A stretch of 64,000 bases of DNA. It comes from Tribonema minus (Eukaryota > Sar > Xanthophyceae > Tribonematales > Tribonemataceae). Both the position numbers and the translations under genes were made by a program. The stretch is from contig JAFCMP010000224.1 of NCBI GenBank assembly GCA_017506865.1, positions 310,001-374,000 on the forward strand, in the 5' to 3' direction. The notes beneath the pieces are model-generated. The model worked only from the letters and a program-made list of their open reading frames with translations, was not told where the DNA came from and made no database searches. Positions 8,501 through 61,623 of the stretch are shown piece by piece (position 1 is the stretch's first letter; the number at the start of each line of letters is the position of its first letter).

Positions 8501-11242
8501 GCCGACCCTCGCCCCTCCCCTGCACGAGCTGCCAAGATGTACAGCATGTTGATTCCAAATAGGTAGCTTGATGGTGATGCGATCGCGAGGCCCATCCAAA
8601 GTCACCTCCTGCACCATCTAGTCCACAGCTTTTCATCAAATCATGCCGCTTCCTGCCATCACTACTTAGTTATGTAGGTATGGGTGCATGCTTATTAGGG
8701 TTAGGGTTAGGTGACGGTTTGAGCTGCGGGTCCAGTGAGGCCTCTCACGTATCATAACAGCATTATTCTATTCTAAACTTGCCCTCAAATGCGCACGCAC
8801 ACAGCCGAGCGCCTCATGCGGTGTCCTCCGCTCCCTGTATGCATGAACCCACGAGTGCAGGTGTCGTAGAGCTGGCCTTCGAGAAAGAGGTTTTCATCGG
8901 CGGCGATGACTTCAAGTCCGGACAGACAAAGATGAAGTCCGTGATGGTGGACTTTCTCGTGAGCGCCGGCATCAAGCCCGTGTCGATCGTGTCGTACAAC
9001 CACCTGGGCAACAACGACGGCAAGAACCTCAGCGCGCCGCAGCAGTTCCGGTCCAAGGAGATCAGCAAGAGCAACGTGGTGGACGACATGGTGGCCAGCA
9101 ACAGGTATGTAGGCATACGCGTCTGTATACATGCCTTTGTGCGTATGTATGTGCATCTTGTTTACATGCCGTAGCAGTTCCGCTCTGAAGAGATTAGCAA
9201 GAGCAACGTGGTGGGTGACATGGCCAGCAACAGGTACGAATGCAGACGCGTGTATACGGTGGGTATGGTGTTTTTTGTGCGCGTGTGCATGTGCTGGTTG
9301 CGCCTCACCTCTCAACACTTGACAAACGACTGCTTGACAATGAGCATGAGGACTAAGCACCTGACTGCGCTCTCACCCCGAGAACGATGCTATTCAGGTG
9401 TGCCATGATCCGACATTTCTCCTTTCCAAACTTCATCAAAGTGGCCTGACGCTCCTCATTTTCCAAAAACTTTATCTGAATAGCAAATATTAACGTCAAT
9501 GCCATACACTTCCAGGCTGCTGCACTATGAGGACAAGCACTCGGACCATGCCTGACTGTCTCATCTTCTCTGCCCCTGATAGTGGACGCTCACTTTTGCT
9601 CGCATGTATGTGCAACCTCAACTCCAAACAACTTCCACGCTGTGCAACTGCAATCCCAAACAAACTTCCAGGCTGCTGTACGACGAAGTACGAGCACACG
9701 GACCATGCCTGACGGTCTCCATGTGCTCTGCCCCTGACGGTAGATACTCACACGTGCTCGCATGCACAACTTCAACTCTGAACGAACTTTCAGGCTGCTA
9801 CATCGAGGACGAAACACCCTTGACCATGCTGACCATCTCCACGTGCTCACGTGTGCAACTTCAACCCCACACAACAAACCTCACGCTGTGCAGCTTCAAC
9901 TCCGAACAAACTCCCAGGCTGCTGTACGACGAGTGCGAACCCCTAGATCCATGCTTGACTGACACCATGTGCTCTGCCCCTGACGGTACATACATACTCG
10001 CACTCGCTCGCATGCGCAACTTCAACTCTGAATGAACTTCCAGGCTGCTGTACGACGAGGACGAACACCCGGACCACGTGGTCGTCATCAAGTACGTACC
10101 GTACGTGGCCGACTCCAAGCGCGCGCTGGACGAGTACACGAGCGAGATCTTCATGGGCGGCGTCAACACCATCTCCATGCACAACACGTGCGAGGACTCG
10201 CTGCTCGCGACGCCGCTCATCTTTGACCTCGTGCTCATCGCGGAGCTCGCCGAGCGCGTGCAGGTGAGCATACATACCGTATGCATTGCTGTACGCTTTA
10301 CATGCCGTATGCATCGCTGCTCGTGACGCCGCTCATCTTCGACCTCGTGCTCATCGCGGAGCTCGCCGAGCGCGTGCAGGTGAGCATACATACCGTATGC
10401 ATTGCTGTATGCTTTACATACCGTATGCATCGCTGCTCGTGACGCCGCTCATCTTCGACCTCGTGCTTATCGCGGAGCTTGCCAAGCGTGTGCAGGTGGT
10501 GGTTTGCGCGTACATACTGTATGCATTACTGTATGTATGCTTTACATACTGTTTGTATCGCTCTCAACGCCGCTGACTTACAACATCGCAGAGGTCGCGG
10601 AGCGAGTGAAGGTGGGGTTCAAACGTGCATAGCGAAGCTCATCATGCGCATTTCGTGCTGTCGCTGGCACCGTCAATACTGCTGTCCCCTGTGCTTGATG
10701 CGCCGCCTGCAGCGCGTACGCATTGCTGGTGACAGCATGCTGGTACATACATATTTATAAGTACAGTATGTGATCCGAACACCAAGTGCTGCTCGGCACG
10801 CGAACACAGAAGCTTCACACAGGCCCTCTTTCTATGGGGTGGCTGGGGCGGAGGATCGTGCTGGCGCACGCTTGCAGACCCGTACGCGCCCCCATATACC
10901 ATTGCAAGTGCTCCTTGCTGACGATCGCCGCTGCTGCTGCTGCTGCTGCCGCTGCTGCTGCTGCCGCAGATCAAGCGCGAAGGCTCAGCTAAATTCGAGC
11001 GCCTCCACCCCGTACTCTCGGTCCTCAGCTACATGCTCAAGGCCCCCCTGGTTCCCCCCGGCACCCCCGTCATCAACGCGCTCTTCGCGCAGCGCCAGTG
11101 CCTCGCGAATTTCATGCGCGCGTGCGTGGGCCTCCCCGCGGAGAGCCACATGATGCTCGAGCACAAGCTCGTGGGGGAGATTGAGGAGCGGCAGCACGCA
11201 CGCGAGAACGGAGAGCCCGCGGCGAAGCGCGCGCGCACGTGA
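5577..11242 (+). CDS. INO1: Inositol-3-phosphate synthase, 4 exons
   Basis: Converts glucose 6-phosphate to inositol 3-phosphate with NAD, the first step of inositol synthesis, usually in the cytosol. Exons: 5577-6438, 8861-9104, 10044-10263, 10970-11242. All introns are GT-AG, the phases match, and the total is 532 residues, normal for the family. Exon 1 carries the NAD motif [10 protein letters not shown], then [31 protein letters not shown] and [11 protein letters not shown]. Exon 2 carries [12 protein letters not shown] and [13 protein letters not shown]. Exon 3 has [15 protein letters not shown] and the [15 protein letters not shown] block. Exon 4 has [16 protein letters not shown] and ends in a basic tail. 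The ATG at 5577 gives the family-like [11 protein letters not shown] start. Introns 2 and 3 hold truncated copies of the flanking exon edges; intron 1 (2.4 kb) holds telomere-like runs. Confidence 0.96.
8096..8123. repeat. Interstitial telomere-like run (CCCTAA orientation)
   Basis: A short imperfect run of CCCTAA units inside INO1 intron 1. A second run in the opposite orientation (TTAGGG) lies at 8694-8711 in the same intron. Neither is at a chromosome end. Confidence 0.8.
9174..9233 (+). repeat. Truncated copy of INO1 exon 2, 3' edge plus donor
   Basis: About 60 bases closely resemble the last 63 bases of exon 2 (9042-9104), including the encoded EISKSNVV and the block ending GCCAGCAACAG|GTA. 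The copy has a 3-base deletion and several substitutions. It lies 70 bases into intron 2 and still carries a GT donor. It cannot be added to the reading frame as a normal exon, because it lacks its own acceptor and repeats the same residues. Confidence 0.9.
9490..10043 (+). repeat. Ladder of INO1 exon 3 5'-edge copies with acceptors
   Basis: Direct copies of the junction (intron end)-CAG|GCTGCTGTACGACGAGG with exon-part starts near 9515, 9672, 9794 and 9918. They lead up to the real exon 3 start at 10044, with spacing of about 157, 122, 124 and 126 bases. Each copy carries the acceptor, about 40 bases of exon-like sequence and intron filler containing CAACTTCAACTC. All four copies have lost the reading frame. 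Only the last junction, at 10044, continues into the full exon. Confidence 0.9.
10317..10611 (+). repeat. Ladder of INO1 exon 3 3'-edge copies with donors
   Basis: Three direct copies of the end of exon 3 (10201-10263, encoding [20 protein letters not shown]) lie at 10317-10379, 10433-10495 and 10561-10611. Each is followed by GT and an intron start rich in CATACATACCGTATGCA. The period is 116, 116 and then about 126 bases. Similarity falls with distance: the first copy is almost identical, the third is heavily changed. Confidence 0.93.
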
Positions 11243-13325: not shown

Positions 13326-15729
13326 TCACCGGCTCCCCCTCCGAGACCCCCCCCCGCCCCCATTGAACTCCGCAATGAGCGGCGTGACCAGAGCATCCAG
13401 TGGGTCCATCTCCCGCCGCGGCAGCAGGTCAAACTCCAGGACAAAGAAAATCAAATGCTGTTGAGGAGAGGATGCAAGGGGGGGGGGGGGGGGGGGGGGT
13501 TAGCATACTGGCGGTGAGGGGAGGTTGAGCGACAAAGTTGCTTTTTGCAGGTGTGATGGAAGCTCTCATGTAGACAGCTAGATGGCCGCCGCCGAGTCGA
13601 GTCGCCACACGGAGTGTGCTGCGTGCGCACACTCATGATAAGTTCGTGCAGGGCCGCGGGCGATGACATCAGCTTGGGGTTTAGGATGAGGGTTAGGGTT
13701 TAGGATTAGGGTGCGCTGCTGCCGCTTGGAAACTTGCGACAGGACACACGTCAGAGTCTCGCTCCAGAGTCTCGCATGGCCGCGCGTTCATCACATCACC
13801 TGCATCAGTACTTGCTGTCAGAGTACATAGTGCACGTGATTCAGCATTGCCGCGCCTTTAAGGACGATCGGGCTGCTTGGCCTAACCCTGAATCTGACTC
13901 TAACCTAAACCAAACCCTGACACTGAGCATTCATATCAGGAGGCTTAGCACGCGCAGCTGCTCTACTGTGTCAAACCGACTGCATTGAATGATGTCAAGG
14001 TCACATGATGCAACTTCATGTTGAAGTCAACAAATTGAGCGCTACACCTTGAAGGACGTGTGCAGGTGCTTGGCGGCGCCGAGCTGCTTGATTGTCTCAA
14101 TGTGACTGCAGTGCATGATTTTGATGGTCATATGACGCAACTTCGTGCTTGAAGTAAACAAAAACTGAGCGCTGTCGCACCTTGAAGGACGTGTTGAGGT
14201 GCTTGGCGGCGCCGAGCTGCTCTATCGTCTCAAAGTGGCTGCAGTAGATGATCGCAAAGACGCGGAACAGCCTCTTGAAGACCGTCGCCACCACCCTCTT
14301 GAAGTCCTTGGGGTACGCCGTCACGTCCCCCGACGTCGGAAAGATCCCCTCGTTGTTGATCTGATCCTCCACCCACGCCATCACAAAGTCCACGTACTGC
14401 GGCGCGGAGCACTTCTGCGGTATGGGCTTCTTGCCACCGGGGGGGCGGGGCGCGTTGTCGGGTACCCATAGGTACTCGAACCCGGGGGGGAAGCCCTCTC
14501 CGGGGCGCGAGAAGCGCTCTGCGTCGTCCGCCACGATGCCGTAGAGGAGCGATACTTCGTTGAAGAAGTCAACGGCTGCGGGGGAGGGGGGGGGGGGGGA
14601 AGGGGCAATGATTCGTTCAACAAAAGCTCAAACACTGCACTGCTTTCAAACTCTGCTACGTCTCGGATAGCCTGCATCTCTTGATGTGCACTCCTGAGAG
14701 TGCGCACGCGCGCTCGCGGACTGTCCAAAAGAGATGTTGCTGCACAGTAACAGTTCTTCAAAGTATACGTATGCTGCAGAGTGATACTTGTGTACAGCAT
14801 AGCTATGGACTTTACACGCCTGAGGGTAAAGATGCCAACAAACCATGCTGCTCCAATCATTGCTCACAGTGAATTTCATGTAATTCTCACTCACTGTTCA
14901 CGGACAGCCACTCATTCACGTCCTCCGATGGGGGCAGCTGCACCGCTAATCGCATGTCTCCGCTGCACGTGGAGTAGCAGGCGGGCAGCAAGCAACGCGC
15001 ACACAGTAGAGAGGCATGAGAGCTTTGTCAGCGTAAATACTGGAAGTATGTGCATGTAGGTAGGTACTTCAAATATATCGGCGCTTACCGACTTGGCACG
15101 AGAGCCCGGGCGCTTGAAGGTGTGGACCCATTCCACTACAGACTCAGATGTCTTACCGACTTGGCACAAGAGCCCGGGCGCTTGAAGGTGTGGACCCATT
15201 CCACTACAGACTCAGATGTGCGCTTCCGCAGATGATTGCTCGCACTTCTTGAAGTGGATGTAGAATGGCGCCTGAAGGCAATTTTTGCGTGTTACATGCG
15301 TCCCCCTGTGCTGATGGCGCATTGCTCTGCTGCATTGTTCCCGATCGCTGGTGCAGCAGCTCCAGCAAGGCGGACCAAAAACTTGCAAACTTCAGGTCTC
15401 ACACTGCAGTGAATGTGCAGAGCGTAGTGAGCTGGTGTGCCAGAGCGCAATTCCCGCTTCTTGCAGAGCTGGCCAATAATGGTGGCCATGATTCGATGTG
15501 CTACATGAGTGACCTCGACTGCTGACAGAGGCATGTCAGCTGCAACAACAATTCTGCTGGCACTACAAAAATGCAAATCGCCTCACTCCGGTCGCACACA
15601 CCTGCCCAGTGTAGTTCTAGAGTAAGCGTGGAGCTGGTGATGTTTTGACCCCTCCTTGTGCCCCTTTATCGGCTTGAAGGTCTTGTGCTTGTTGCCGCTA
15701 CCAAACCTCGATGATAAACTGGAGAACAT
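13326..15729 (-). CDS. MOB1: MOB1-like kinase activator (Mob1/phocein family), one internal exon unplaced
   Basis: MOB1 proteins bind and activate NDR/LATS kinases in cell-cycle and morphogenesis pathways. Exons seen on the minus strand: 15729-15602 (start; MFSSLSSRFG, HKTFKPIKGHKEGSKHHQL), 14575-14181 (VDFFNEVSLLYG, KCSAPQYVDFVMAWVEDQ, FKRLFRVFAIIYCSHF, AAKHLNTSFK) and 13457-13326 (HLIFFVLEFDLLPRREMDPL to stop). Exon 1 ends in phase 2 and exon 14575-14181 begins in phase 1, so a short exon of about 20 codons (the family block ending in NEW) is missing between them. I could not place it. The two family zinc cysteines and the first zinc histidine are absent (see findings). The glycine/serine tail after residue FN is unusual. 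Confidence 0.88.
14048..14115 (-). repeat. Copy of the MOB1 middle exon 3' edge with donor
   Basis: Read on the minus strand, this repeats the end of the 14575-14181 exon (the AAKHLNTSFK region) with its donor, 133 bases into the following intron. A second, more decayed remnant with the same filler (ACTTCATG, TTGAAGTCAACA) lies near 13985-14047. Confidence 0.85.
15084..15219 (-). repeat. 68-bp tandem duplication in the MOB1 upstream intron
   Basis: Two nearly identical 68-base units start at 15084 and 15152. On the minus strand each reads an open TSESVVEWVHTFKRPGS followed by AAGTCG|GTAAG. The donor-like end makes it look like a duplicated exon edge. The VVEW residues recall the NEW block of MOB1, but the phase (0) does not match the flanking exons, so I do not call it an exon. 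Confidence 0.7.
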
Positions 15730-16564: not shown

Positions 16565-19500
16565 ATGTCAGCCAACAGGGCTGTACTGCTGGGGTCGGAG
16601 GTACTCAAGGACGATTGGGGAAGTCATGTCGTGTGGCCTGTGCTCGACACAGAGTATCTCAGCAAGATCAAGGCAAGTTGGAACAACATGGAGCCATCGG
16701 GCCAGATGCGATATCTTCTAGCCTGCCTGGGCGCAGACTACGCTCGAGATCCGGCTATGGAGCGTCAAGTGCGGCAGTTCGTGGAAGAGATACACGATGG
16801 CCACAACATGGACGCCTGGGTAGCTCCCATGGCCGGGCTTGTCGCCAAGATGTTGTTCGGCGACAAGAAGACCTATGAGCAGCTTGAGAGCGTCATGGAT
16901 GACACCATTGACAGCGTCATGACCAAAACGCTGCAACACGCAGTGGCGATGGTGGAAGGCTCTACAGACAAAACCGTTGGCGCCGGTGGCAAAGCTGCAA
17001 AAACGGAGTTGGAGGGAGATGGCGAGAAGCAGCCCAAGTCTTCTCCTGCAGCCCCTGATGCTGCTGGTGATGGCATGACCTGGGAGCAGCTGCTCGACAA
17101 GGCTAGCACACCGTACTTCTATCCTCTAGAGGTGAGCAACGACCAGTAACAGCATCAGTCCCTGGGTGCTGTCCACCATCGCTACGGAGCTTCGAAGCCG
17201 ACATCGCCCACACCGATACAGTGTACTCAGTCATCCACCAGCAGTGTCACCTGGGTGCCAGGCTCAGGGCTGCAAAGGCAATGCGCAGTGTCGGCACTTA
17301 CGCATACACTGGCATGAAGTGCCTTCCTGCAATGGTTCATGCTCACGCACACAGCCGCGCTGTATCTGATGCAACAGATGCACTGTGCACACGGCAGCAG
17401 GGCATGCGCAGAGCAGCATGCAGTCCGTGTAGCTGCGGCAGTCAAGAAGCGTCGACAACGCCGTGCCCTATTCATGAGGTGCATGATGTGCTCTCCCCCG
17501 CTACTGCACACTCATCATCTATGTGTTTACACTGCTGTACTTCGAGATCAACATCTGCAAGGGTACGTAGGCAAAAAACACGCGCTACGCTGTCCTATTG
17601 CTGCTGCTGACCTCCTGGGTTTGAAGTAGCCTCTTGAAACATCCTCTTGTTGTTGGAACGTGCCCCAATCCTTGAAGTGCGACGCTCCTCTTGCAACGTG
17701 GAGACCTCCACACCGTCGGCGCGTGCCCTTTCTTACCCTGCCGCGCTGCGCATCATCACGTCCTCGAGCCGCCTCTCAAGCACAGCACCACCACTACAGC
17801 ATATCATCTGCTGCCACGGCGCCCTGTTTCCATCCCCACCACGTCGTCAGGCCCTGTTCCCGCTCCCAGCCTACTGCGCCGCTCCTCTGTCATCCTCAAT
17901 TTAGGCTGACATGCGTGCCAGCAGAGATCATGAACCCGCCGTCGGCCTACCGTACAACGGCGCGCTGGCGCTCTCTGGGGCTCTACCCCTCTCAAGCCGC
18001 CAGCCCCAAAGCCCGCCCGCACAACATGTACACCTGTATCTCTCATTGCTTATCATCACCCCACCTTCACCCCCCCTTGCGTCCGCCAGGCCCAGTACCT
18101 GCACCCCAGCCTGCAGCCCCCGCGCAGCGCCTTCGACAACCGCCACTTCCAGCCCGCGCCGCGCAAGGCTGCGCCGACGCCGACCGGCGCGGAGCGCCAG
18201 ACGCAGGGCATGTGGAGCACTGCCCCCAGTGCGAGCACTGCTGCTGCTGCGGGGGATGGGGCGAGGGGCGCCGGGGGGGGCGGGGTGCGTGGCGCGCAAG
18301 GTGAAGTATGATAGGGAGGAGCGTCGTCGGTGGTGGTGTTGAAGTTGTACCTTGAAGTGCAGGTGCAGTGGGGGGGCGGGGCGGCATAGAGCGCCTGCTT
18401 GTGTTGTTTTCAGGGGAAAGCATGGCGTGGACGTGTACAGTCATGCATCGCTGATGCGGTGGAAGGCAAGTATGCATGACGCGTGGGGAACAACTGCCAC
18501 CTCGTCTCGCATGCACGCGTGAGGGTCATATGGGTGACACGACACCGCACTGACGTGCTGCCGAGACGCGGCGCTGGCGGCAGCCAAGCCGCCAAACAGC
18601 CTCTTCTTCAACGATTAGACTGCTGGAGCCCTGATCCTGTAACCCTGCGGTTAGGCTTAGCGTAATCAGCCAGCACGCAACACGCGACAGCGCTGCGGCC
18701 AAGAACCAGCGCCCGCATTTGCACACGCATGTGACCAGTCTGTTACCACTCACAAGTGCCCGCTTCACCCCTTGCGACCCCCCCTTGTATCTCAGGTCAA
18801 AGGCCACCAGCGCCCTCTGAGCAGGCCAAGAGGCCGGGGAGCTGGGGGGCGGGGGGTGGGGGGTGGCACAGGGACCTAGGGGGCGGGGGGGGCTTGCCAA
18901 GGACGCGAGGGGCATGGGGGCGTGGCGTGCAAGCAGCGGCGTAAGGTTAGTGCATTGTCTCTGTATTGTAGTATAGTGTAGTTTGCTAGAGTACCAAGGC
19001 CCGAGGGTGCTTTTGGGTCACACGGGGGGGAAGGGGGGGGGCATGTGGCATTGCTCAGGCGCTCTCGGCGTACTTGAAGTGAGCATCGAGCTTTTGGCGT
19101 TTGTGACTGTGACTCCATTATTGACCGTGATGTGAAGGCTTCAACCCCTTCCGCCATCTAATACCGCTATGCGCTTGCATGTGAATTGGACGAGTCTGAT
19201 GTGCGCAGGCAGCACAAGGGCATTTGTGCGTAGATTGGGGGTAGCAGATTGTGAACGGTCGCACAAGAATGAGCCTCATTACGCAAAATGTGAGATTCGC
19301 GCCACGCGCACTGAGCACTGAGGCCAGACGCTGCACTGTCATGCTTCCACTTTCAGCAATGGAAGGCACTTGAGCTCACTCAAGCCCCCCCCCCCACCCC
19401 CCCCCATCCCCCCTCCCCTTCTCACAGTAAGAAGAGCAAGATGGTCATGCTCGACGTGACAGACGTCAAGAAGATCCGCCAGGCAGAGGCGATGCCCGAA

Positions 19501-20082
19501 GCGCCCAGCGCGGTGCCAGCCAAGGGCCGCAAACGCAGCGCCCCAACACTCAATCTCCACAAGCCCTTGCCCTCCCAAGCAGGTGGCGGCGGCGCTGCTG
19601 CCGCCACAGCAGAGCCCAAGCGGCCGCGGCTCATCGATGCGCCGCAGCCGAAAGCGGCAGCGGCAGTGGCGCCAGCGCCAGCAGCGGCGCAAGCGTGGCC
19701 CGCCGCCGCAGCAGCGCCGCCGCAGCGTGCGGCGGCCGCGCCGCCGGCTGCAGAGGCCGCAGCGCAGGCGGCGGCAGCAGCGGCGGCGACGGCGGCAGCA
19801 GCAGCGGCGGCGGCGTCGCCGGCGGATACGCTGCTGCAGCAGGCGAACCTGCTGAGCGCGGAGGACGCGCAGCGCGTGCGGCTCTTCTTCCAGGGGACGA
19901 ACCCAACGCCGGGGCAGCTGCAGGTGAAGCTGAAGATGCACGAGGAGTTTGTCGGCGGCGCGCGCGAGACGCTGTACCTGAATCTCGACTACGCGACCAT
20001 GACATGGCGCAAGACCAAGAAGGTCAAGCAGCAGGCGGCGGCGCCGCCGCAGCAGCCGCCGCAGCAGCAGCCGCAGGCGTGA
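16565..20082 (+). CDS. NELFA: NELF-A-like negative elongation factor subunit, 4 exons
   Basis: In animals NELF-A is part of the NELF complex that holds RNA polymerase II in promoter-proximal pausing. Exons: 16565-17131, 18090-18300, 18796-18940, 19428-20082. Phases match (0, 1, 2) and the total is 525 residues. Exon 1 encodes the helical N-terminal domain (WPVLDTEYLSKIKASW, GQMRYLLACLG, DAWVAPMAGLVAKMLF) and ends TPYFYPLE. It continues across the splice as AQYLHPSL, like the animal PLECQYLN junction. Exons 2-3 are a low-complexity linker rich in Gly, Ala and Pro. Exon 4 opens with a basic patch and MVMLDVTDVKKIRQAE, matching the animal VKLLDISELD block. It then has a long alanine tract and ends with a folded C-terminal segment (NLLSAEDAQRVRLFFQG, LNLDYATMTWRKTKKVK), where animals have MNYATGQWTRFKKYK. 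Family call is by pattern, and both ends and the order agree. Confidence 0.85.
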
Positions 20083-21804: not shown

Positions 21805-22139
21805 CTATGAAGCCGTCGTCTGCGCCACCGCGCCCTCCTCCTCGTACTCCTCCTCGTTCAGCGCCGGCATGCGCCCCAGCTGCTCGTAGCCGCCCGCGCC
21901 CTTGTACTCGAGCAGCGGCGGCACGCTCGCGCCGTCGCCGCGGCAGATGTTGCAGGTGACGCCCCCCGCGCCGCCGCAGCAGCCGCACGGCACCGACAGC
22001 GGCGCGGCGGCGCCGTCGGAGCGGCGCCGCGCGAGGAGGATGCCGACGCCGTAGCAGCGCGCGCACGTGAGCGTGCCCGCGCCCTGGCAGTACGGGCACA
22101 CGCTGCGCTTCACCACGTTCTGCTTCTTGAGCTCCAGGC
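21805..22139 (-). CDS. ORANGE/DnaJ-type zinc-finger protein, last exon
   Basis: A C-terminal exon of 335 bases on the minus strand. It is preceded by a C-rich tract and CAG acceptor (phase 1) and ends with TAG at 21805. It encodes LELKKQNVVKRSVCPYCQGAG followed by three more CxxCxGxG-like units (CARCYGVG, CGCCGGAG, CNICRGDG), then an acidic tail with NEEEYEEEG. Four such Cys pairs bind two zinc ions in DnaJ and in plastid ORANGE-like proteins, and the basic run before the first finger resembles the ORANGE family. Upstream exons are not identified with certainty; the leader exon at 23686-23916 is on the same strand and may belong to this gene. Without the other exons the exact family stays open. 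Confidence 0.7.
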
Positions 22140-23685
22140 CTGGGGGGGGCGGGTGGTGGATGGGGGGGGGGGGGGGGTGACGGCATTGTGTCATATGCGC
22201 GAATACGGGGTGTCGTGGCTATGCGTATACGAGCGCGACGACAGGTAGCGCGGGCCTGTCACACGCTGGCCGCGCCTGATGAGCCTATTTCTAACCCTAA
22301 CCCCTTCATGGCAGGCTGTCTCGCTTTCTCTACTTACTCTAGCACCCAGTGATGCTGGCTCCAGCCCTGCAGTAAGTCAACAAGCTACTTGCGGGCTACG
22401 CGTGCATCAAAGTCCGCATGCAGTGAGAATCACCGTGAGATAAATGCGAACCTTTGCAAGCAACATGTAGCAATGCTTATCGAATGCGCATCATCTGCTG
22501 TCACCTTGATTTTTCGGCACTGCCCATGGTGGCATGGTGGCCCACTACTGCAGTCAACAGAGACAGAGGTGCTCACACAAGTAATGCGCAATACCACTGT
22601 CAAACAGAAAACCGCTGCAGGTTGTCACCAGCAAACGGCAGAGAAATCCACACTGTAAAGCCTGCTGAGCTGTGCTGAGTCAAATGTTGAGAGAACTTCA
22701 AGTATATGTTGGTCCTGAGAGCATGTGACTGATGTTACGAGTCAATTCGCAAGTGATATTTGCAGTGCGAAAAGATGGACGTGCACATGTGCAAGCCGCA
22801 CTGCCAGCTGCACCAGCATGCAATACCTACAGAATTTCCTGGTGACTAGGTGCAAGGCTGCACAACGAGCTTCCTCTTGAATGGCGTAATTGTCCAATGA
22901 AGCCCTATCGCACACGATCCAGGCAAGTTGTCACCTCAGCATCAGCACGAACTAACAGCCCTTGACAGCTCCACGTTGTTACGTTGTTGTCTGACATGAG
23001 CTGAGACGCATCATCCACGGCTTCAAAAGACCGTGCCATGGCGAAACTGCCAATTCAGTTGGCTGACACCTGTAGTCACAGGTGAGGCGTGCACATACAT
23101 CAGATTGCTGCTGCCGCAATGAGATGGCACGGAACACTACCACACGCCTATTGCAGGCCTTCCTGTGTGTTGACGTCGAACACGCATCCTTGTTGCCTCG
23201 TTCGCGGTTGAAACTCAAGAATGCAAATATGATAGCATCCTCAAGAGCTCTACTGATAGAATTTGACTCTGAGCACGATTAATCGTCTCATACGTTGACG
23301 CACATACTGTGCGTGCACAGCCAAGCCATGCATATGGAACAAATCAGGGCACCAGTGGGCCTGCGAACACGCCAACAGCTTTAAGCCTTTTTCAATGTGC
23401 AAACACTTTACCTATAAGGGTCCCCATGACTCCGACCGTTCCACCAGCAAAGCCGCTCATCAACTCATTTACGGCCTGCATATGCAGAGAGTGCATAGGA
23501 GGTCAGACAATGCGATGCTTGTTGAAGTCATACACGGAAGTGACGATCCAGCGCATCAGCGCATGGCAGCGCGCCACGCAGTCAAGAGAGCAGAGCAGCC
23601 TGACCAGCGCCGCAGACGGCAGCTGCTGTGTCATCAGATGCATAAGCTAACGCGATGCTAGCACAAGTTCATAGGTGAAACGTAC
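22140..23685. other. Probable intron sequence with unplaced exons
   Basis: Lies between the plastid-leader exon and the zinc-finger exon, both on the minus strand. If they are one gene, at least one more exon must be here, because the phases (0 out, 1 in) do not join directly. A minus-strand open stretch around 23640-23535 (QQLPSAALVRLLCSLD) is a weak candidate. A short CCCTAA run is at 22291-22303. Confidence 0.35.
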
Positions 23686-24467: not shown

Positions 24468-27083
24468 ATGATCGGCCTGGCACCTTCGCGCTCTCATGGA
24501 GCTCCTAGTCAGACGCTGATGGATGCCCCTCGTCAGCGAACCCAGAGTCCGATTGTCACGGGCACCAGTGTCATCGGTCTTAAGTACAAGGACGGGGTGA
24601 TGTTAGCAGCGGATACACTGGCATCCTATGGTTCGCTGGCGCGGTACAAGAGCGTGGAAAGGATCCGCCCCGTAGGAGAGTCCACGCTGCTGGGAGCTTC
24701 CGGAGAATACTCTGACTTCCAGGTAAGCGCTCTTTGATGGTCTGCTGCTGCCCTTGTACTGATGGTGCTGCGGCCACGTCTTTCATCGCAGAATTGATGT
24801 TTGCGTTGGCAACTTACTTGTACATGCATTCGCGCACCCGTTGCACCTAAGCCAGCACCGTCTTACTGTCACTCAGTGCCCTGTATGATGTCTTCAGGCT
24901 TTAGGAAGCTACCTGCACGAAAGAAACTTCAATTGCGCAGCGCTGTGGATCCAGTGATAACTCATGTCAAACGCGTGTCAGAAACACATCAGGGACAGCA
25001 CTGGCACCTCATGGACTGTAGCCAGCGCCTCTATGACTCCAGCAGTGCCTTGCGTTGCCGCATCATCAGTCGCCTCGCTTCTTCTACTGCGTTGGCATGT
25101 ATCCTTGAGCACGCTCTACAAGCTTCCATACTCGCGCACGCCTATTCACGTCCTGCACCGCTTCATTCCGACCATGTGCCAATGCGGAACACTGTCAACC
25201 CATGGACGGTTCCATGTGCCTGTCAATGATGTTGCCACTGGCCTGGTGACACCGACTCACGACGCTACATCTTTGATCCAGTAATGGCTTGCTGTTGGCT
25301 CTGCTGACGAGCTGTCGCAGCACCGAATGCACTCGCTCCCTTGTGATCCACGCCCTTCTTTGAATAGTAATGGAGATGCTCCAATACGCTTCTTTGAATA
25401 GTAATGGAGATGCTTCAATGCGACCAGGAGCAGGAGGACAGGAATACGCTTGATAATGCAAATACGCTTGTCAGGATTCCACGGAGCCACAGCCTTTCCT
25501 TGCAACCTCTCTAAGCGGCGTGAGGCACCCATTGCCGCACCCATGCATCTCTTCCAGGCAATCATTGAAATGGCTTCAGGATCAGGAGCATGTCATCTCT
25601 CCTGATGAAGTAGCTCAGCACGCTCCATCCCCGCAACACGCGCGCAGGCGGCCATGGAGATGCTCGAGGACCAGATGCAGGAGGACATGAACAATGTTTT
25701 TCTCCATGAAGTACATTAGGGTATATTAAAGTTAGGGTGAGGTCATCATTAGCACATGAAGTACTTAGGGTTAGGGTGAGGTCATCATTAGCACATGAAG
25801 TACCTATTATAAGGGGTGTCAGGGTGAGGGTTGGGTCATCTTAGCACGCCCCATTTCATTTCCGCACGTGCGCAGGCAATCATAGAGATGCTGGAGGATC
25901 AGACGCAGGAGGACAGGAACAATGCTATTTTTCCTCATGAAATGTACCTAGGGTATATTAGGGTTAGCTTATCTTATTGCGCCCCATTACCATGATGCGC
26001 ACGCAGGCGACCATGGAGATGCTTGAGGACCAGACGCAGGAGGACAGGAACAAATGTTGTTTTTCTCATGAAGAATAGTAGGGTCTGGGTTAGGTTATCG
26101 TAGCAACGCGCCCCATGCCACAATGCGTGACAACAACCTCAACACGCTCGCCATTCCCGCAATGCGCGCGCAGGCGATCATGGAGATGCTGGAGGACCAG
26201 ACGCAGGAGGACAGGAACATGGACGACGGCTTCAAGCGCGCGCCCGCGGAGGTCCACTCGTACCTGCGCGCGGTCATGTACAACCGCCGCAACAAGATGA
26301 ACCCGCTGTGGAACTACCTGCTCATTGCGGGCGTGAACCCGCGCACGGGGGGCTTCTTCCTGGGCTCCGTGGACCACATCGGCACCGCGTACGAGGATGA
26401 TATCCTCGCGACGGGCTTCGGCGCGCACCTCGCGCTGCCGATACTGCGGCGGCGGTGGCGCGCGGACATGGAGGTGTGTATTACATTGATTGTGTTTGTT
26501 GTTGAGTAGATATGGTTTGAGGGACTCACAACTCATGCACGCGCCGTCCTGCGTCTGCTGCCCCTTCTAGGAGGCAGCAGGACTGCATGTGCGTCCTCTT
26601 CTACCATTCGTTGCAGTTGCCACCACCTCAGCATCTAGCATCAGCCAGCACCTCTGGTTGTGAGATCATGCGACTCACGCACGCATCACCCCTGCCTCTC
26701 CTACCCCCCCCGTGCAGGAGGGGCGCGCGCTGCTGGAGGACTGCATGCGCGTCCTCTTCTACCATTGATTTGTACTGGCCACAACCTTAGCATCCAGCAT
26801 CAGCTACCACATCTGCTGTGCAGCCTGATCGTCAGCTCACTCCACTCAAGCATTGCCCTGCCTTCAATACTTCCCCTTGCAGGAGGGAGAGGCACGCGCG
26901 CTGCTGGAGGACTGCATGCGCGTCCTCTTCTACCGCGACTGCCGCGCGCTCAACCGCATACAGATTGCCAAGGCCACGCGCGAGGGCGTTCTCGTCTCCG
27001 ACCCGTACACGATAGAGACGTCGTGGAGCCTCGCCGCCTTCGCGCAGCCCAAGGCGGGCGCTGATACGGATGGCAGCTGGTGA
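24468..27083 (+). CDS. PSMB4: Proteasome subunit beta type-4, 3 exons
   Basis: A non-catalytic beta subunit of the 20S proteasome core. Exons: 24468-24722, 26174-26473, 26883-27083; both introns are GT-AG in phase 0. Exon 1 carries RTQSPIVTGTSVIGLKYKDG, AADTLASYGSLARYKSVERI and GASGEYSDFQ. Exon 2 carries MYNRRNKMNPLWNYLL, GFFLGSVDHIGTAYED and ILATGFGAHLALPILR. Exon 3 carries LLEDCMRVLFYRDCRALNRI and TIETSWSLAAF. The catalytic threonine of active beta subunits is not expected here. With the ATG at 24468 the protein has 251 residues; in-frame ATGs at 24408 and 24519 are alternatives (the family pro-sequence is short, so 24519 is plausible). Both introns contain repeated exon-edge copies. Confidence 0.95.
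25360..26173 (+). repeat. Ladder of PSMB4 exon 2 5'-edge copies with acceptors
   Basis: Copies of CGCAGGCGATCATGGAGATG-type sequence have exon-part starts at about 25558, 25648, 25875 and 26006, before the real exon at 26174. Fragments (ATGGAGATGCT) occur already near 25370. Each copy is followed by AGGAACAATG-like filler and a telomere-like stretch (TTAGGGTGAGG). Copies nearest the exon match best. Confidence 0.92.
26571..26882 (+). repeat. Two PSMB4 exon 3 5'-edge copies with acceptors
   Basis: Copies of the exon 3 start (encoding LLEDCMRVLFY) begin at 26571 and 26718 after TAG and CAG acceptors; the real exon begins at 26883. Spacing is 147 and 165 bases. The second copy keeps CTGCTGGAGGACTGCATGCG exactly before diverging after TTCTACC. 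Confidence 0.93.
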
Positions 27084-27653: not shown

Positions 27654-50307
<22,654 letters not shown>

Positions 50308-51102
50308 GAACGTGGCTCTGCAGCAGCCGCTTCTCGATGTTGCCACTGCCCAACGTGATCATGCTCAGTAGAGTGAGGCCATAGCACAAAGGAAGTGACC
50401 CCTTGGCTCTGCAAAGACCGTGTCTCGATCTTACCACCGCAAGTCTATGATCTTGCTCAGCAGGGAAAAGGTCACAGACCGCGCAACGAAGTACTGCATA
50501 CGCAGTAGACGCTCTGCCTGTGCCCAAATGCGCGACACCTGTGCAGATCACCAATTTTGCTGAGCCGGCGCCGGGGTGCTGGTCATAGAGCCTTACATCC
50601 CTGCGCATGTAAGAAGAACGGTCTGTAATCATGGGCAAGGTTGGTGACTGTGGCAATACAGGCTCTCCAATGGTCACGAGTGGTGACGGAGCGTGTTCAA
50701 TGTTGCCTCTTGTCTGTCTGCATACTCTGCGCTGAACCGTGCACTGATTTGCAGGCAACATCATGACTCTGTCAGCGGCAAGGCGTCGTGCGTGCATGAG
50801 GATCCAACATGTCACATTTGTGTGCTGCCAACTGCTGCTGCTGGATGATGTCATGATCGTTGCCAGCACCTGTGTTGAGCCATTTGTGAAGAACGCCAGC
50901 CCTACACCCTCGCCGCAAGTTAGGCTTTATGACTGCCAGGGCTTGTGTTCATTCAGCTGCTGGCTCTCTGGCGTCACACACCGACGCCGCTCGCGCCGCC
51001 TTGGCGCACTACGCGCTGGACGGTTTCAAACTTCAAGTTGAAGCTTACTTTTGAAGTTTGCGTTGAAGTTTATGTGCGAACCACCTTGGCGCGGACGATG
51101 CA
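50308..51102. other. Intergenic region, ATPase to rhomboid
   Basis: About 800 bases with no recognisable exon. The CTTCAA/TTGAAG motif is dense at 51028-51070 (AACTTCAAGTTGAAGCTTAC), shortly before the rhomboid start, as also upstream of the ATPase start. Confidence 0.45.
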
Positions 51103-54100
51103 ATGATGGCTCCTGCTGATTCAGATGTCGCTGAAAGGGAGCTGGAGTCGCTGAGGCAGCGCGTTCGGCAGCAGGTTGTTACACTTCAGCTTCAGCAAGA
51201 TCGCGTGTGATCCTCTGCAAGCATTGATGTTGATGATGTTGATGCACCGCGATCGTGGCTGAGCTTCAGCACAGCACTGACGTTTACTGCGCTGCCCGAA
51301 ACTTACGCCGCCAAGCGAGACGGGCCATTGCCAGTGCGTCCTGTAGTTGTCGCGATGGCTGAGCTCGCCTGAACGCGTCTCAATTTGTCATTGCTATGTT
51401 GATTTACGCCAATGCAGGAAGAACTTATACAGCAGCTGCTAGCGGCCCAGGAGGTTAGCGAGAATGCAGCGGCAGCGGCTGCGGTCCAGTACGCCGCCGC
51501 GGTTCCTGCTGAGCCACGGACACCGCAGCCTGCAGCCGGTGTGGCTGACACATTCGATGATGGCAGCTTCGATGACGGCGTTGAGAGTTCGCTGTTGGAG
51601 CGGCATAGGCAAGCAGCTGGAGATGAGGAGATGGCCAGGGTGCTGCAGGTGCGTGCACGGAGCGCCTGTCGTTGCTGCTGAGGGGCCAGGCAGCAGCAAC
51701 CGATCAAGCTGCAGCTTGGCGGCGCATGTTAAGGCACAAGCTAAGGACCAACATGGGATCACTTGTCGGCTCATGCCACTCTGATGAGCGTTTTTAATAT
51801 GTTTGAAAATGCGGTTGCCAGGGGCACGCGATTGGTGCATCTGCAGGTACTCAGGCGGGTCAGCAGCAATTGTCATGCCCGACTGGTGGCTCAGCCTCTC
51901 AACATCAAGCGATGATGCCCATGTTCCTGTGATGATGCGCAATGTGCCTGTTATTGGAACTGTCCAGCCACTCGGGATCCTTCGGTGGCGGCTGTAGCAG
52001 CTGCAGTGGCGCAAGCACCACCTGACATGCACGGGTCCCGCATGTCTGAATGTAATCATTTCGCCTGCATGGACTTCATCTGTTTCTAAGGACACTCTTG
52101 CCTGCGCAGCACGGGTGGGCCGCATGAGTGCTGCATGCAGGTGTTGACGCAGTATTTGAACTTCAGGCATGAACTTCAATGTGCGCTCCACTCTCCGCAG
52201 ACATCCGTGTTGCACCTGTGTTGGTGTTGTTGTGATGCACCGTGTGTGGCCACATCAACAGCTGAACGCTAACTTGACTGCACACGATGCCAACTTTCTC
52301 TGCCGCAGAGGATGGAAATGGGAAATGCGGCGGACGATGAGCGCGATCCTGAAATGGAGGACCCTGTGTGGGGCAAACTGGTCGTCGAGCAGGTGCGAGG
52401 ATGCTTCCGATGCAGATAAGAAACGGCACAAGCCCGAATGCTTAGCATCGCTGCGTTAAACAAAGCTCAATATAGCTTACCATCGCTGCACTGTATGCTT
52501 ACCATCGCTGCGTTAAACAAAACTCAATATAGCTTACCATCGCTGCACTGTAACATAGCTCGATGCCGTTGTGGACAGTAGCCCTGTGCGGCAGCGCGCC
52601 ACACGCCGTCGCTAATCCATACACTGCTGTGCTGCAGCGGAGGTTTATAAACGTTGCCGGGCCAAACACCTCATGTCGGGCATGCATACACATCATGACC
52701 AGAGACGCAGCTGCCAGTGCGCGCCACCCGCTGCCGCTGCAGCAACGGAGGCATGTGTGATGGTGCCTCATGCGGCAGGCGCCCTCGTCGTCGCCTCTGT
52801 TGCCGCGCTAGGACCTGCTCTGCTTCGCTGACGAGGGCAGAAGTTGGCTCGCATGGTATGCGAGGCCCACATCCAGCGGGAAAGCGTTGCTGTTTGCGCG
52901 ATCGCGGCCATGGCCTGTGCCTCTCACGCACCACGCAAGGGAACTACTTAACAAGCCTGGTTGCAGTTGAAGTCACAGTCATCGGCAGACCGACACCTGT
53001 CGCACTGGGCATCGTGAGCACTGCTGTGGCCTGTTCCACTGCGCCTCCTGCCTTGTAGGTACTGCTTGACCACAACACCTGCATCCTAACCGCCACGACT
53101 TGCGCATTGTGATACAGTATGTTACACATATACCGTATGTGTGCTGCCTCTCACCCTTGCTGTGCCTAACCCTAACCCTAACCCATGTAATGCGAAGACC
53201 CATTTTGAGCGAAATACCACTGGTTGCGCGATGACGGCTATGACCTGTGTCTCAGGCACTACTCAAGGAAGAAAAAAAAAGCTTGGTTGAAGTTGAGGTC
53301 ACAGTCATACCGGGCGGGGCGGGCGAGCAGCATCATGGCCTGTCACGCTGCGCACCCTGAGCACTGCTGTAGCCTCTGCCATGTCGCCTCCCGCTCTGCG
53401 CCGCTTGGCTACAGTACCTGCATACTCACCACACACAGCGCAAGACAGTGCCGTGTGTGCTGCCCCTCACTCTCGCTATGCCAAATCCGAACCCTAAGCC
53501 TAACCCTACTTGTGCCCAGCCTAACCCTAAACTTAACCCTAATTGTGCGTAATCCTAACTCTACTTGTGCGCAGGTCGGCGGGCCCAGGCCCCACCAGGT
53601 GCTGTGCTTTGCGTTCTGCCCCTGCCTGGTCGGGCCCACGCTGCGGTGGGAGCGCCGCACCATGCTGGGGGGATTGTCCGTGCCCGTGCTGCTGTGCGAC
53701 AGCGGAAAGTCGGCGGTTATACGGCGGCTGATGAAAACGGTGGGTTTGTACGCGTGGCCATGACTGGTGACTCGTGCGTCGAGTTTGTGAGTGTGAGTTG
53801 GCATGACTCTGACTCATCCCTGGTCATGCGCGTAGGTACTGGTTTTGGAGCACGGTGAAGCTCGACTTACATATGTAGTGGCCAGTGCGCGAATATGTGT
53901 TTGTGTACCGCCCCTTCCGCCCGCCCCCACCCCACCCCCCCCGCCGTATCAGCGCAAGTTGTGCTGCGTAACACTTCTAAAGTAGAACGTAAACAAGTGT
54001 AGTCCAAGCTGCATTTTGCAAGCGGTCTGGCTGTGAGGGAAGGCTGGCGATATTAAGGAACCTAGCGTGTTCTCTCACATTGGGGCATGGTCACCCTTGA

Positions 54101-57100
54101 GTGTAGTTAGGGTTAGGGTCAGGCTGTACTGCCCTCAACTCTGATCCAGAGACATCAGTGCTCACCAGTTGTTCTCAGGCAGTGGCACATGCTCTACAGT
54201 AGTATGGCACACCCATGTGCATTCTCTGCACTTCTCGGCAGTTGTCCTACTGTAGCACCGAACGACCGCCTGCACTGCAGGGTACCTCACGTCAGTGAAG
54301 ACCGTCTGAGATGATAGGTACAAAGCGTGGCACTGACAGCATTTCGCCTCTCCATGATATATGACAGCCCAAGATTTGCCTATTTCATCAAAACAGCGCT
54401 TTCCCCCCTGTGTTTCGCACTGCGCAGTGGGCGGTGGGATTTGGCGCAGTGCAGGTGGCAATGCTGCTGCAGGCACTGACCGTTGGCGGCGGTGGGCTGG
54501 CTCCAACTTCCGTCAACCCCATGTTAGGGCCTTGGCCGTCTGTGCTGGTGATACAGGTGACGCTCCTATGCCAGTGCTGCTCGCTGCTGCCTCGCATCAC
54601 GGCTCAGCAGTGCTGCTGAGGTGTGTAGAGGTATTTTGCGCAAGAGGGGCATTCGCCGCGCCTTTGGAGCGGTGCGCTTTGGTTTAGGGTTAGGGTTAGG
54701 GTTAGGGTTAGGGTTAGAGTTAGGGCAGCGACTGCATTATCTGGGTTATCAGTTATCTTTTCACTGACTCAGTCAGGCATTCATTCAAGCACATTCACAC
54801 ATTTGGGCAGCACGAGATGCTTGTCAAGTGCTCAGGATAGGAGGCTGATGACTGTGTTAATCATTGAGCTGCGCTGAAAGCCGTTTTGACACGGCCAGTG
54901 GGAAGCCCCCACGCAGCTGGTCCATTACGTACGATGATTTTGTTTTTGTGCTGGAGTCTTTGGGCAATGGACAGAGTGCTGGAAGCAACTAGCCAGGGCA
55001 TAGATGTACATTCCCTGAGGGTATTGCGAGTATAGCAGTGGCCCTGCATCTTTGCAGCAATCCCGCCCAAGCATGTCACTGCAGCGCAATGTACAAACAT
55101 GGGCTTGCCCGTCTCACGCTGCCTATGCACACGGTGCCATTGCTGCCTGCGTTCGGTGCGCCAAGGTCGCTTCGGCCATCGTGCACCGGCACCAGTACTG
55201 GCGCTTAGGCGTACACTCCTAGAGGGTACACTTGTTTCAGAAATGTCTTGCGAGTATAGCAGTAGGCTCGTATCTTTGCAGCACTCGCCTCGCCAAACAT
55301 GACACTGCAGCACAACTCAAGCACCATACTACTGTTAACCTATGGGCTTCCCTATCTAATGAAACCGCATCAAAAGATCGTAGAGCTCTAGGTGACAAGG
55401 TGTGGTGAGCCGCAAGAGCCTTCCACCAATAACCGTGGTTGCCGCTGCTGCAGCACGAGTCAAACAGTACCACCATATCCATAGTAGTCAAAAGACTAAA
55501 AAAATAGTTACTGTGCTCAAAAGACTTCTGTGTGCAAGCTTTTAGCGTTCGAGGCATGGGTGTTCAGTATCTAATATCGTTGTGCACACGATGCCATTGC
55601 TGCCGGTGTGCAGGGTGCCAAGGTCGCGTCGTTGATAGTGTACAGGCACCAGTACTGGCGCCTGATGACGCCGCTGCTGCTGCACGCGGGCCTCATTCAC
55701 CTCGTCGTCAACCTGGGCATACAGCTGCGCATAGGTAAGGCCCACAGCCTGCCACCAACAACATTAGAGGAGCCATGAAAAACCTTGTCGTGTCCTCTGT
55801 ACATTTCATTGTCATTTGTCGGGGCATACAGCTGTGCATACGTAAGGCGCAATGCCCGCCGCCGACAACGCCGGAAGAGCCATTAATAACTCTGTTGTGT
55901 CGTCGTTGTCGACCGGGGCACAGCTGCTCATGGATCGGACGCAGCACCCGCCGCTGCCAACACCAGATGAGCCATTTGAGTGTTAGCACCAGCGCTGCTG
56001 AGCCCTGCCATTGCTTAGGTAAGGTCTGTTGTGTCCTCTGTACACCTCATTGTCATTTGTCGGGGCATACAGCTGCGCATAGGTAAGGCCTGGGTGCCCG
56101 CCGTTGACAAGGTCAGACGAGCCGTGAACATTTCATTGTGTTTTCTGAACACCTCATTGTCAATCGCTGCACATCAATCAGACTCAGCACCCGCCGCTGC
56201 TAGTACCAGATGAATTGTCTCTAATGCTGCAAGCGTGTTACCAACAACGACGCTAAGCGCTGCCGCCATTGCTGAAGGTAGTAGTTCATTTCTGTAGACT
56301 ATGCACTCCCTCTTGAGCATTGCCCACACTTGGCATGGCGTCGCGCGTTGGCGAGGGGGGCGCTGAGCGCTGTCAGCATGGCACACTGAGGGTTGCTTAG
56401 ACCTAGTCTAATGTATACAGAATGCCCCAGCAAACGTGGGGAAGTGAGGACGAGCAAGCTGCCTGTTTCACGAAGACAATTCCGCTCACCTGCACTTGAT
56501 CTCGAAAACACATGAGGGCGACGGAGGGCAACACGAGGTGGCATTTCGCTGTGCACTAACAAGGGAAGGCTGGGCACATTGCAAACGGACTTGATGGTAG
56601 CACTGGCATGCCAAAGACTCCACACTCGACTTGCACATTGTCGCCTGCTGTTCACCGCTGACACACACATGAGTGACGGTCTGTCGTTTGAACACTCACA
56701 GAGCGGTGAAATGTGGACTCGATCTCTATTTCGTCATGCAGTGTGCTTTATTAGCGGCGCTCTTGGGTTTATACGTGCATGAGCAAGACTAGGCCCTGGG
56801 GCTGGGCCAGGGCTGCCTAGCCCTAATGTTACGGCAAGCCGGTACTACTGCAACAGTGAAATGCCCTCTGCATTCCCACATTTCCTTGTAGACCTCGTAC
56901 TCACACTTGCCCAGTGACTTAGTGAACAACACTTAGAGTTGAGGCTGGCCTGCAGCTCTGTTTCTGCTTCCGCAGGTTCCCGACACCAGTGTCAGCCGCT
57001 GCTGCCGTGAGACATCAGGCGCAGCTGACTTCACGATTAAGCAATGCATCATGCTCGTGCCTATGCGGCCGCGCTTGCTCCCCGCACGCGGTGAATCAGA

Positions 57101-61478: not shown

Positions 61479-61623
61479 CGACGATGTCCGCCGTGCGCTT
61501 TCTGTTCACCTGCTTGCTGTCTTTCATAAGGTGCTCAAAAGTTTTTTAAGGGGTGAACGTGCTTCTTGAAGTTTTTCGCAACCCGTTTGAAGTTCGCTAA
61601 AACCGTTGTGCAAACCAACGAGG

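Follow-up and report, generated by a model that had tools for sequence, protein, structure and literature searches.

The window analysed here, a 64,000-nucleotide stretch of the Tribonema minus genome that was selected because the feature is visible there, carries five genes whose exons were curated by translation and homology: INO1 (matching PF07994/PF01658), MOB1 (PF03637), a proteasome beta gene that is putatively PSMB4 (PF00227), a calcium ATPase (Ca-ATPase) and a rhomboid gene (PF01694). The reading frame assembled from 21 exons of the Ca-ATPase aligns with SERCA2 (5mpm; query 20-1016; E 5.9e-267), and the alignment as listed contains small length differences, none matching the copies described below, and no inserted duplicate. 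Because the protein fits SERCA2 without such an insertion, the Ca-ATPase copies sit inside introns.

We defined an edge copy as a direct match of an exon edge and its splice site within the adjoining intron, with a local score of at least 50. In the window, 23 of 68 exon edges have such a copy, corresponding to 19 of 34 introns, compared with 0 of 794 when exon edges were matched to other introns and 0 of 68 for reverse complements. At a looser score of 40, these values were 25 of 68, 1 of 794 and 0 of 68, respectively. Copies of donor edges lie downstream of their exon and those of acceptor edges upstream, exactly the geometry that had been proposed (Table 1). The original statement that most long introns carry copies holds narrowly, as 15 of the 34 introns have none at a score of 50, including the longest (INO1 6439-8860, 2,422 bp).

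The same search was applied to a sample of 250 kb from other parts of the genome, with exons taken from our own gene finder. After 53 of 280 predicted exons were removed as a neighbour's copy or as too short, a step that favours the junction reading, 41 of the 352 tested edges (of 382) had a copy and controls gave 0 of 1,228. Eleven of 16 scanned sample genes were supported by Pfam, these 16 having been picked for their arrays. Exon-edge copying beside splice sites is confirmed as real, and the sample shows that it occurs elsewhere in the genome. An introner or transposable element was considered and rejected, as neither set of sampled other introns gave a match at the threshold of 50.

Several features of individual arrays were recorded alongside. 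The live donor of Ca-ATPase exon 31077-31298 is GC, and the doubtful copy at its acceptor edge lies in GCC-rich, low-complexity DNA and was placed under interior in the array statistics. The array of proteasome beta exon 26174-26473 has an exon-only remnant upstream, at about 25404-25444, and a short tandem repeat (25731-25803) between its copies. A single stray array piece was noticed elsewhere in the genome.

Table 1 Exon-edge copies in the window. Donor, 3' exon edge with donor; acceptor, 5' exon edge with acceptor.
Gene	Exon	Edge	Copies	Period (bp)	Position	Strand	Remark
INO1	8861-9104	donor	1	132	9036..9257	+	
INO1	10044-10263	acceptor	4 upstream	122-156	9497..10076	+	
INO1	10044-10263	donor	at least 2	116	10198..10614	+	
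MOB1	14181-14575	donor	1	about 126-133	13956..14252	-	
Proteasome beta	26174-26473	acceptor	3 full	131-228	25614..26219	+	
Proteasome beta	26883-27082	acceptor	1 full, 1 exon-only piece		26579..26934	+	
Ca-ATPase	31077-31298	acceptor			30707..31074	+	doubtful; score 52
Ca-ATPase	31077-31298	donor	2	145-154	31207..31601	+	
Ca-ATPase	32203-32404	acceptor	upstream copy or copies	about 110	31939..32258	+	
Ca-ATPase	32203-32404	donor	2	129	32348..32683	+	
Ca-ATPase	33261-33363	acceptor	1	184	32938..33274	+	14 bp of exon; score below 50
Ca-ATPase	33851-33941	donor	1 decayed	135	33884..34093	+	
Ca-ATPase	35294-35479	acceptor	4 upstream	126-150	34727..35325	+	
Ca-ATPase	35294-35479	donor	3	126, constant	35397..35858	+	
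Ca-ATPase	37283-37417	donor	3, then a fourth remnant	141-152	37367..37866	+	
Ca-ATPase	38843-38914	donor	1	184	38889..39106	+	
Ca-ATPase	40265-40402	acceptor and donor	upstream acceptor copies; downstream donor copy	175-184; 153	39665..40587	+	
Ca-ATPase	41155-41313	acceptor	2 decayed		40873..41056	+	by eye; score 42; interior in statistics
Ca-ATPase	42922-43053	donor	2 decayed	143-162	42973..43367	+	score 49, sub-threshold
Ca-ATPase	43864-44013	acceptor	1	185	43646..43901	+	
Ca-ATPase	43864-44013	donor	1	102	43988..44143	+	
Ca-ATPase	46480-46569	donor	1	about 238	46522..46830	+	
Ca-ATPase	47952-48225	donor	2	103-109	48163..48515	+	
Rhomboid	55614-55734	acceptor	upstream copy	offset 457	55021..55661	+	
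Rhomboid	55614-55734	donor	at least 2	107 (first)	55715..56213	+	

Tandem structure of the arrays

Units are mostly 100-190 bp long and combine, for the most part, 25-100 bp of exon with 45-190 bp of intron. Their periods are near-constant in most arrays (for example, 126/126/126 and 177/184/175), with exceptions such as 228/131/167 and 107/241, homology of the intron-derived parts can still be recognised in 84 of 102 copies (z of at least 3), and TRF likewise detects arrays. The arrays are thus shown to be tandem duplications and not scattered copies. For units of 80-260 bp in the window and sample together, the median period is 145 bp and the 10-90% range 108-193 bp. There is weak support for the fall of similarity with distance that was first noted: 21 of 35 arrays have their best match in the nearest copy, against 14.5 expected.

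The newest pair, at Ca-ATPase exon 40265-40402, spans 39977-40326 and is 99% identical over a 175-bp unit. It is also the only junction case among four clean two-copy duplications whose borders share 0, 0, 1 and 1 bp of extra homology, the remaining 12 of 16 rows having no clean end. This pair is the one most open to doubt if the repeats were assembly errors or collapsed haplotypes, an explanation that we consider extremely improbable for the arrays as a whole: copies differ from one another by graded amounts, each with its own indels, which makes wholesale assembly error unlikely, and they are arranged in an orderly way relative to reading frames.

Placement at splice junctions

When intronic arrays with units of 80-260 bp were classed as junction or interior, 57 of 66 (0.86) spanned a junction (22 of 24 in the window and 35 of 42 in the sample), compared with 29% expected from random placement; clusters in this size range that were unclassified (7), exonic (4) or intergenic (9) are not part of the count, and several arrays within one gene are not independent. 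Arrays are denser at junctions than in intron interiors or intergenic DNA, contrary to the even placement originally named as what would refute the pattern. Junction density is 2.67 arrays per kb in the window and 0.73 in the sample (3.7 times lower), against 0.065 and 0.060 in intron interiors and 0.038 and 0.092 between genes, so that junctions exceed intron interiors 41 times in the window and 12 times in the sample. Units shorter than 80 bp were not concentrated at junctions (3 arrays there, 10 interior), and we ascribe a seeming change of junction share with array age to these short-period arrays, which are mostly interior. The strong junction excess of 80-260-bp duplications is shown.

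Duplication might instead occur evenly everywhere, with junction-crossing arrays only easier to see and longer-lasting because selection holds one copy fixed. Some bias of this kind is certain, since a duplication confined to an exon disappears and an interior one changes in both of its copies, and the sample has a similar background in intron interiors and between genes. Moreover, arrays found by TRF with at least 90% match and any period of at least 50 were at a junction in 2 cases and interior in 6, 5 of the latter having periods below 80. The size of the bias can be gauged from how many junction arrays would be detectable if they were wholly intronic: 35 of 56 when scaled to the whole unit, a 1.6-fold bias, and 16 of 56 on the actual intron part alone, the harshest value at 3.5-fold. 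Both fall well below the excess of about 15-fold in odds (57:9 versus 0.29:0.71). When duplications were simulated at random positions, decaying neutrally and with long indels allowed, the junction share came to 0.24-0.32, and another simulation gave 0.30-0.36 rather than 0.86; the latter drew its periods and lengths from an array set in which a low-complexity filter had dropped long alignments (175 pairs versus 238), whereas the final counts use the corrected set. Finally, TRF requires similarity over the whole unit, yet 12 of its 17 arrays with 80-260-bp units were at a junction. As modelled, detection bias and neutral survivorship fall short of the junction excess, and we think an even spread of duplication events unlikely.

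Counting the original unit, junction arrays account for 25.5% of the window's intron bases and 12.6% of the sample's. The suggested intron growth is thus supported as a real contribution to length: arrays derived from the adjacent junction hold about a quarter of intron sequence in the window and an eighth in the sample. Intron lengthening is usually attributed to transposons and random indels.

Decay of the spare copies

Mismatches between live edges and window copies fall 73/67/140 across the three codon positions. Changes specific to the copies are distributed 38/29/44 and those of the live lineage 0/2/11, and 23 of 32 indels in window copies shift the frame. With silent changes in the live exon discounted, the mismatches are spread evenly across the codon positions. 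Spare copies therefore decay roughly neutrally, though not perfectly so. We rejected tandem or mutually exclusive exons as an identity for the copies, which lack coding constraint by these same counts. Alternative exons and coding repeats were likewise set aside. Splice dinucleotides are intact in 85 of 98 copies, little above the 0.77-0.82 of adjacent exon dinucleotides, and the role in alternative splicing that had been suggested finds no support in this near-neutral decay. The same retention figure bears on stwintrons or recursive splicing, in which internal splice sites would be used one after another, and gives no sign of such use. Exon parts of copies differ at 443 of 3,909 sites, with about 540 predicted from the intron parts (825 of 3,742); copies were found through exon similarity, and this deficit may be an effect of the search.

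Selection could favour junction duplications, with extra sites aiding intron recognition or providing alternatives, at least temporarily. The units do include the junction, few interior units adjoin one, and both the slight surplus of intact dinucleotides and exon parts whose divergence is about 18% short of the strictly neutral value point in this direction. However, alignments that span a site favour their centre, which here is the splice-site position, acceptor copies on the upstream side should do harm, and the even spread of copy-specific changes and predominance of frame-shifting indels argue against constraint. We regard such selection as improbable.

Alternatively, gene conversion from the live exon could refresh exon parts and so prolong the time over which arrays are recognisable. 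One sample copy (C1 contig block, 46293) has exon mismatches at 0 of 55 sites and intron mismatches at 15 of 47 (p 2.7e-4, 1 of 102 copies), and the total exon-part deficit and score-based comparisons of copy pairs run in the same direction. Of 30 copy-copy pairs, 20 have a recognisable exon part and an intron part that is not clearly so; in the 10 with well-aligned intron parts, by contrast, both parts have diverged to a similar degree, with identities of 0.819 and 0.805. An apparent rule that exon parts of dead copies far outlive intron parts was abandoned as largely a product of harsh indel scoring. Under indel-tolerant scoring, p falls below 0.01 for 2 of 84 copies, which leaves the total exon-part deficit of about 18%, one strong outlier copy and the set of copy pairs whose intron parts are unrecognisable. 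Gene conversion is improbable in our assessment.

Proposed mechanism and related systems

We favour, with a probability of roughly 0.55, recurrent junction duplications whose outer copies are spliced out and decay, the event being promoted by something tied to the junction. This accords with the original proposal of repeated tandem duplication over a junction with the innermost copy alone under selection. Tandem duplications, mostly of 100-190 bp, would recur at exon-intron junctions, with breakpoints mostly 25-100 bp into the exon at one end and 45-200 bp into the intron at the other. Because each unit joins an exon edge to an intron edge, splicing would probably remove the spare copies: the inner copy would remain in the mRNA under selection, and outer copies, with their spare donor or acceptor, would land in the intron, be spliced out at low cost and decay. 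Further events, or slippage within the array, could then yield several copies and a longer intron. At the DNA level, a break whose long overhangs are filled in may be closed by end joining, and a junction-linked factor such as transcription, splicing or nucleosome position may raise the likelihood of the event.

A more tentative extension is that splice junctions of this lineage act as hot spots where nucleosome-sized tandem duplication recurs because DNA is marked or broken there in the course of transcription or splicing, making intron growth a standing and junction-directed process. Should the excess stem from biased mutation, DNA would bear the imprint of RNA processing or of chromatin at splice sites; if the hot-spot reading is true, a trail of dead splice sites has been left genome-wide. 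Each array also sets a competing splice-site copy beside the live site and so offers a natural experiment on how splice sites are chosen.

The original statement that no named system matches was too strong. Our literature search found that single junction-crossing duplications are known and found no such concentration of them. In a potato RdRp gene, a tandem duplication crosses an intron-exon boundary (Ma, Lan and Niu 2016, PMC4974935), and the first intron holds another tandem duplication of 83 bp. As in Tribonema minus, 3' intron, acceptor and 5' exon edge were duplicated in tandem at the DNA level, in potato with verification by reads. In the available part of that report, potato RdRp is one case in which a new intron arose from a cryptic donor; by contrast, the T. 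minus copies lie in introns, with no new intron seen, in many genes and on both donor and acceptor sides. More generally, intron gain through tandem genomic duplication has been proposed and in part demonstrated (PMC3443670), so that gene structure is shaped by one class of mutation there and here. In that model, as the accessible text presents it, an exonic AGGT is duplicated and the intervening stretch becomes an intron, whereas the unit here already has a working junction and its copy ends within an old intron.

For the DNA step, small tandem duplications can arise by end joining when complementary overhangs are filled by CST-guided Pol alpha-primase (PMC8355091). These resemble the present units in being small, direct duplications, and near-blunt ends are there joined by NHEJ, as may be the case here; the system, as far as the available portion of the article describes it, concerns induced breaks in mouse and human cells with overhangs of 43 and 50 bp, and no link to splice junctions. 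Introners (PMC9860276) likewise generate intronic sequence genome-wide but are described as copying themselves into many genes, whereas the tested arrays here match their own gene only.

Copies of exon edges inside introns

We aligned each exon edge (50 exon and 30 intron bases) to the remainder of its own intron, using a threshold score of 50. Among the five curated genes of the window, which was chosen for showing the feature, 23 of 68 edges reached this score, in 19 of 34 introns; at the same score the queries gave 0 of 794 matches against the other introns of the set and 0 of 68 against the reverse complement. Relaxed stringency recovered 51 copies at 28 window edges. In a 250-kb sample from elsewhere in the genome (158 Mb, 554 contigs), picked regardless of content as 20 stretches of 10 kb on 20 contigs plus one 50-kb block, 41 of 352 tested edges (382 in total) reached the threshold, as did 0 of 1228 control comparisons. 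Sample copies occurred in 15 of 33 predicted intron-bearing genes, and the share of edges with a copy climbed with intron length (3/60, 3/76, 13/106, 18/94 and 4/16).

Exons were predicted with a small coding and splice-site HMM trained on the window exons, with five genes corrected by hand. Because this HMM mistakes many copies for exons, 53 of 280 predicted sample exons were dropped as resembling a neighbouring exon or as internal and <25 bp, which biases the sample towards a junction-copy reading. Pfam supported INO1, MOB1, the proteasome beta subunit and the rhomboid gene, as well as 11 of 16 array-bearing sample genes, which were scanned as predicted and selected for carrying arrays. The 21 joined exons of the Ca-ATPase aligned with SERCA2 from residue 20 to 1016, the first residues of exon 42048, whose start is uncertain, being omitted from the query protein. 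Rhomboid exon 53575 has an uncertain 3' end, with a phase mismatch there.

Concentration at splice junctions

Copies with units of 80-260 bp were commoner at exon edges than in intron interiors, the comparison set as a refutation test for the original observation. Among clusters with a smallest period of 80-260 bp after corrected filtering, 57 lay at junctions and 9 in interiors (22 and 2 in the window, 35 and 7 in the sample), arrays within one gene being non-independent; other clusters of this class were intergenic (9), exonic (4) or unclassified (7). Uniform placement on pre-duplication gene structures predicted junction shares of 0.26 in the window and 0.30 in the sample. Densities per kb of possible start positions were, for window and sample respectively, 2.67 and 0.73 at junctions, 0.065 and 0.060 in interiors, and 0.038 and 0.092 in intergenic sequence, to which uncurated predicted genes were assigned in the window. 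Both window interior arrays are doubtful (see table).

Tandem Repeats Finder (TRF), which needs whole-unit similarity, placed 12 of 17 arrays with 80-260-bp units at junctions, and 4 of its 5 interior arrays sit within clusters placed at a junction by BLAST. In the 11 Pfam-supported sample genes, picked for having arrays, 30 of 32 junction-or-interior arrays of 80-260 bp were at junctions, with 5 more unclassified. Units <80 bp differed, with 3 at junctions and 10 in interiors; TRF at any period of at least 50 and a match of at least 90% gave 2 and 6, five of the six interior periods being <80. The two-copy window repeats of 57-69 bp likewise show no junction preference.

Features of the window by position
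Feature	Window position	Remark
PsbO	1641-2603	one open frame without introns
Short-period interior repeat	15084-15219	
Short-period interior repeat	49129-49268	end 9 bp upstream of an acceptor
Short-period interior repeat	52438-52552	
Uncurated predicted gene (example)	16757-20082	
Uncurated predicted gene (example)	21805-23427	
Uncurated predicted gene (example)	60501-62531	
Doubtful interior array	30707-31074	low-complexity GCC run adjoining acceptor
Doubtful interior array	40873-41056	by eye, resembles copies of next exon edge
Ca-ATPase intron, apparent GC start	31299	GT in aligned copies, GC in live donor
Ca-ATPase intron, apparent GC start	42145	
TTAGGG telomere-like run	42210-42282	Ca-ATPase intron
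TTAGGG telomere-like run	54684-54725	rhomboid intron
Diverged 81-bp repeats	62019-62565	

Even duplication followed by neutral survivorship around a constrained live exon could in principle yield such an excess, but simulations that placed duplications at random, held the live exon under constraint and let the rest decay through small and long indels gave junction shares of 0.24-0.32 (0.30-0.36 in an earlier version). Junction arrays are also easier to find: on the harshest count, 16 of 56 were detectable from the intron part alone, a 3.5-fold bias, although scaling to the whole unit raised this to 35 of 56, a 1.6-fold bias, against an excess of ~15-fold in odds.

Decay of the copies and their splice sites

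The main alternative account of the junction excess would be selection favouring extra splice sites. Among the 98 copies that span the splice site, GT or AG stayed intact in 85 (14/17, 13/14, 33/37 and 25/30), compared with dinucleotide retention of 0.77-0.82 in nearby exon and 0.61-0.69 in intron; the spare splice sites show neither purging nor clear preservation.

Mismatches between live edges and window copies fell at 73/756, 67/747 and 140/750 sites of codon positions 1, 2 and 3, the pattern expected if copies drift neutrally (equal thirds) while the live exon accumulates silent changes. Copy-specific changes numbered 38, 29 and 44 by position and live-lineage changes 0, 2 and 11; frame-shifting indels made up 23/32 in these copies. 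Intron parts were recognisable in 84 of 102 copies from window and sample, with mismatches at 825/3742 sites, compared with 443/3909 in their exon parts. The latter figure is ~18% below the ~540 predicted from strict neutrality and silent live-exon change, a deficit favoured by the detection of copies via exon similarity, to which slight constraint or gene conversion may add. Taken individually, 2 of the 84 copies deviated at p < 0.01 (p < 0.001 for one), and 0 of 84 did so the other way round, with the exon part more diverged. An acceptor-edge copy in a WD40 gene (near 46293 in a block of contig C1 joined from L025-L029), with 0/55 exon and 15/47 intron mismatches, is a candidate for gene conversion. 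Exon and intron were similarly diverged (identity 0.819 versus 0.805) in the 10 of 30 copy-copy pairs with well-aligned intron parts; in the remaining 20 the exon part was recognisable (0.818) and the intron part not clearly so.

Array anatomy and possible origin

Across the 58 arrays from window and sample whose nearest copy lies at a period of 80-260 bp, 37 on donor and 21 on acceptor sides, the period had a median of 145 (10-90% range 108-193) and the exon part a median of 53 (10th percentile 25, maximum 104). The intron part was at least 45 on donor sides, to which masking of the first 45 bases during the search may contribute, and at least 50 on acceptor sides, as expected because a live acceptor cannot do without a branch point and pyrimidine tract of its own. 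Periods were near-constant inside most arrays, which favours tandem duplication over scattered insertion.

Homology beyond whole units in four clean duplications, only one of them at a junction, was 0, 0, 1 and 1 bp. Overhang fill-in followed by end joining, a route demonstrated in mouse and human cells (PMC8355091), would account for this better than recombination of pre-existing repeats. Most units contain more intron than exon, which makes a hot exon improbable. Since the unit is nucleosome-sized and contains the junction, breaks might occur on either side of a junction-seated structure such as a nucleosome, R-loop or paused polymerase. Related prior work on intron gain by tandem duplication reportedly includes the original AGGT model and an ATP2A2 experiment. 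Such gain is also treated in PMC3443670 and PMC2891723, and duplication across an intron-exon boundary is described for one potato gene (PMC4974935). Among the open-access PMC papers retrieved, we found no report of genome-wide junction concentration of duplications or of comparable duplications in yellow-green algae.

Another contig carries a stray 156-bp fragment of the acceptor-edge array of INO1, at ~1501-1656 of the 3.1-kb locus L002 (G000:C13:1023940-1027027), the remainder of which has no other clear window match. Made up of a single spacer flanked by two exon-edge copies, the fragment resembles window 9518-9642 and adjoining copies (88% identity over 127 bp) and is apparently, by eye, bordered by ~45-bp direct repeats. 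Judged from this one sequence, array units may be captured and then pasted elsewhere.

The curated genes have many long introns, two of them with telomere-like runs; the intronless PsbO has, among the best 120 matches listed, a JGI-source protein at the top (95% over 94%) and Botrydium granulatum as best named match (84%), which would make the source probably a stramenopile close to the yellow-green algae. The translation of the 81-bp repeats presumably resembles ankyrin-type repeats of algae.
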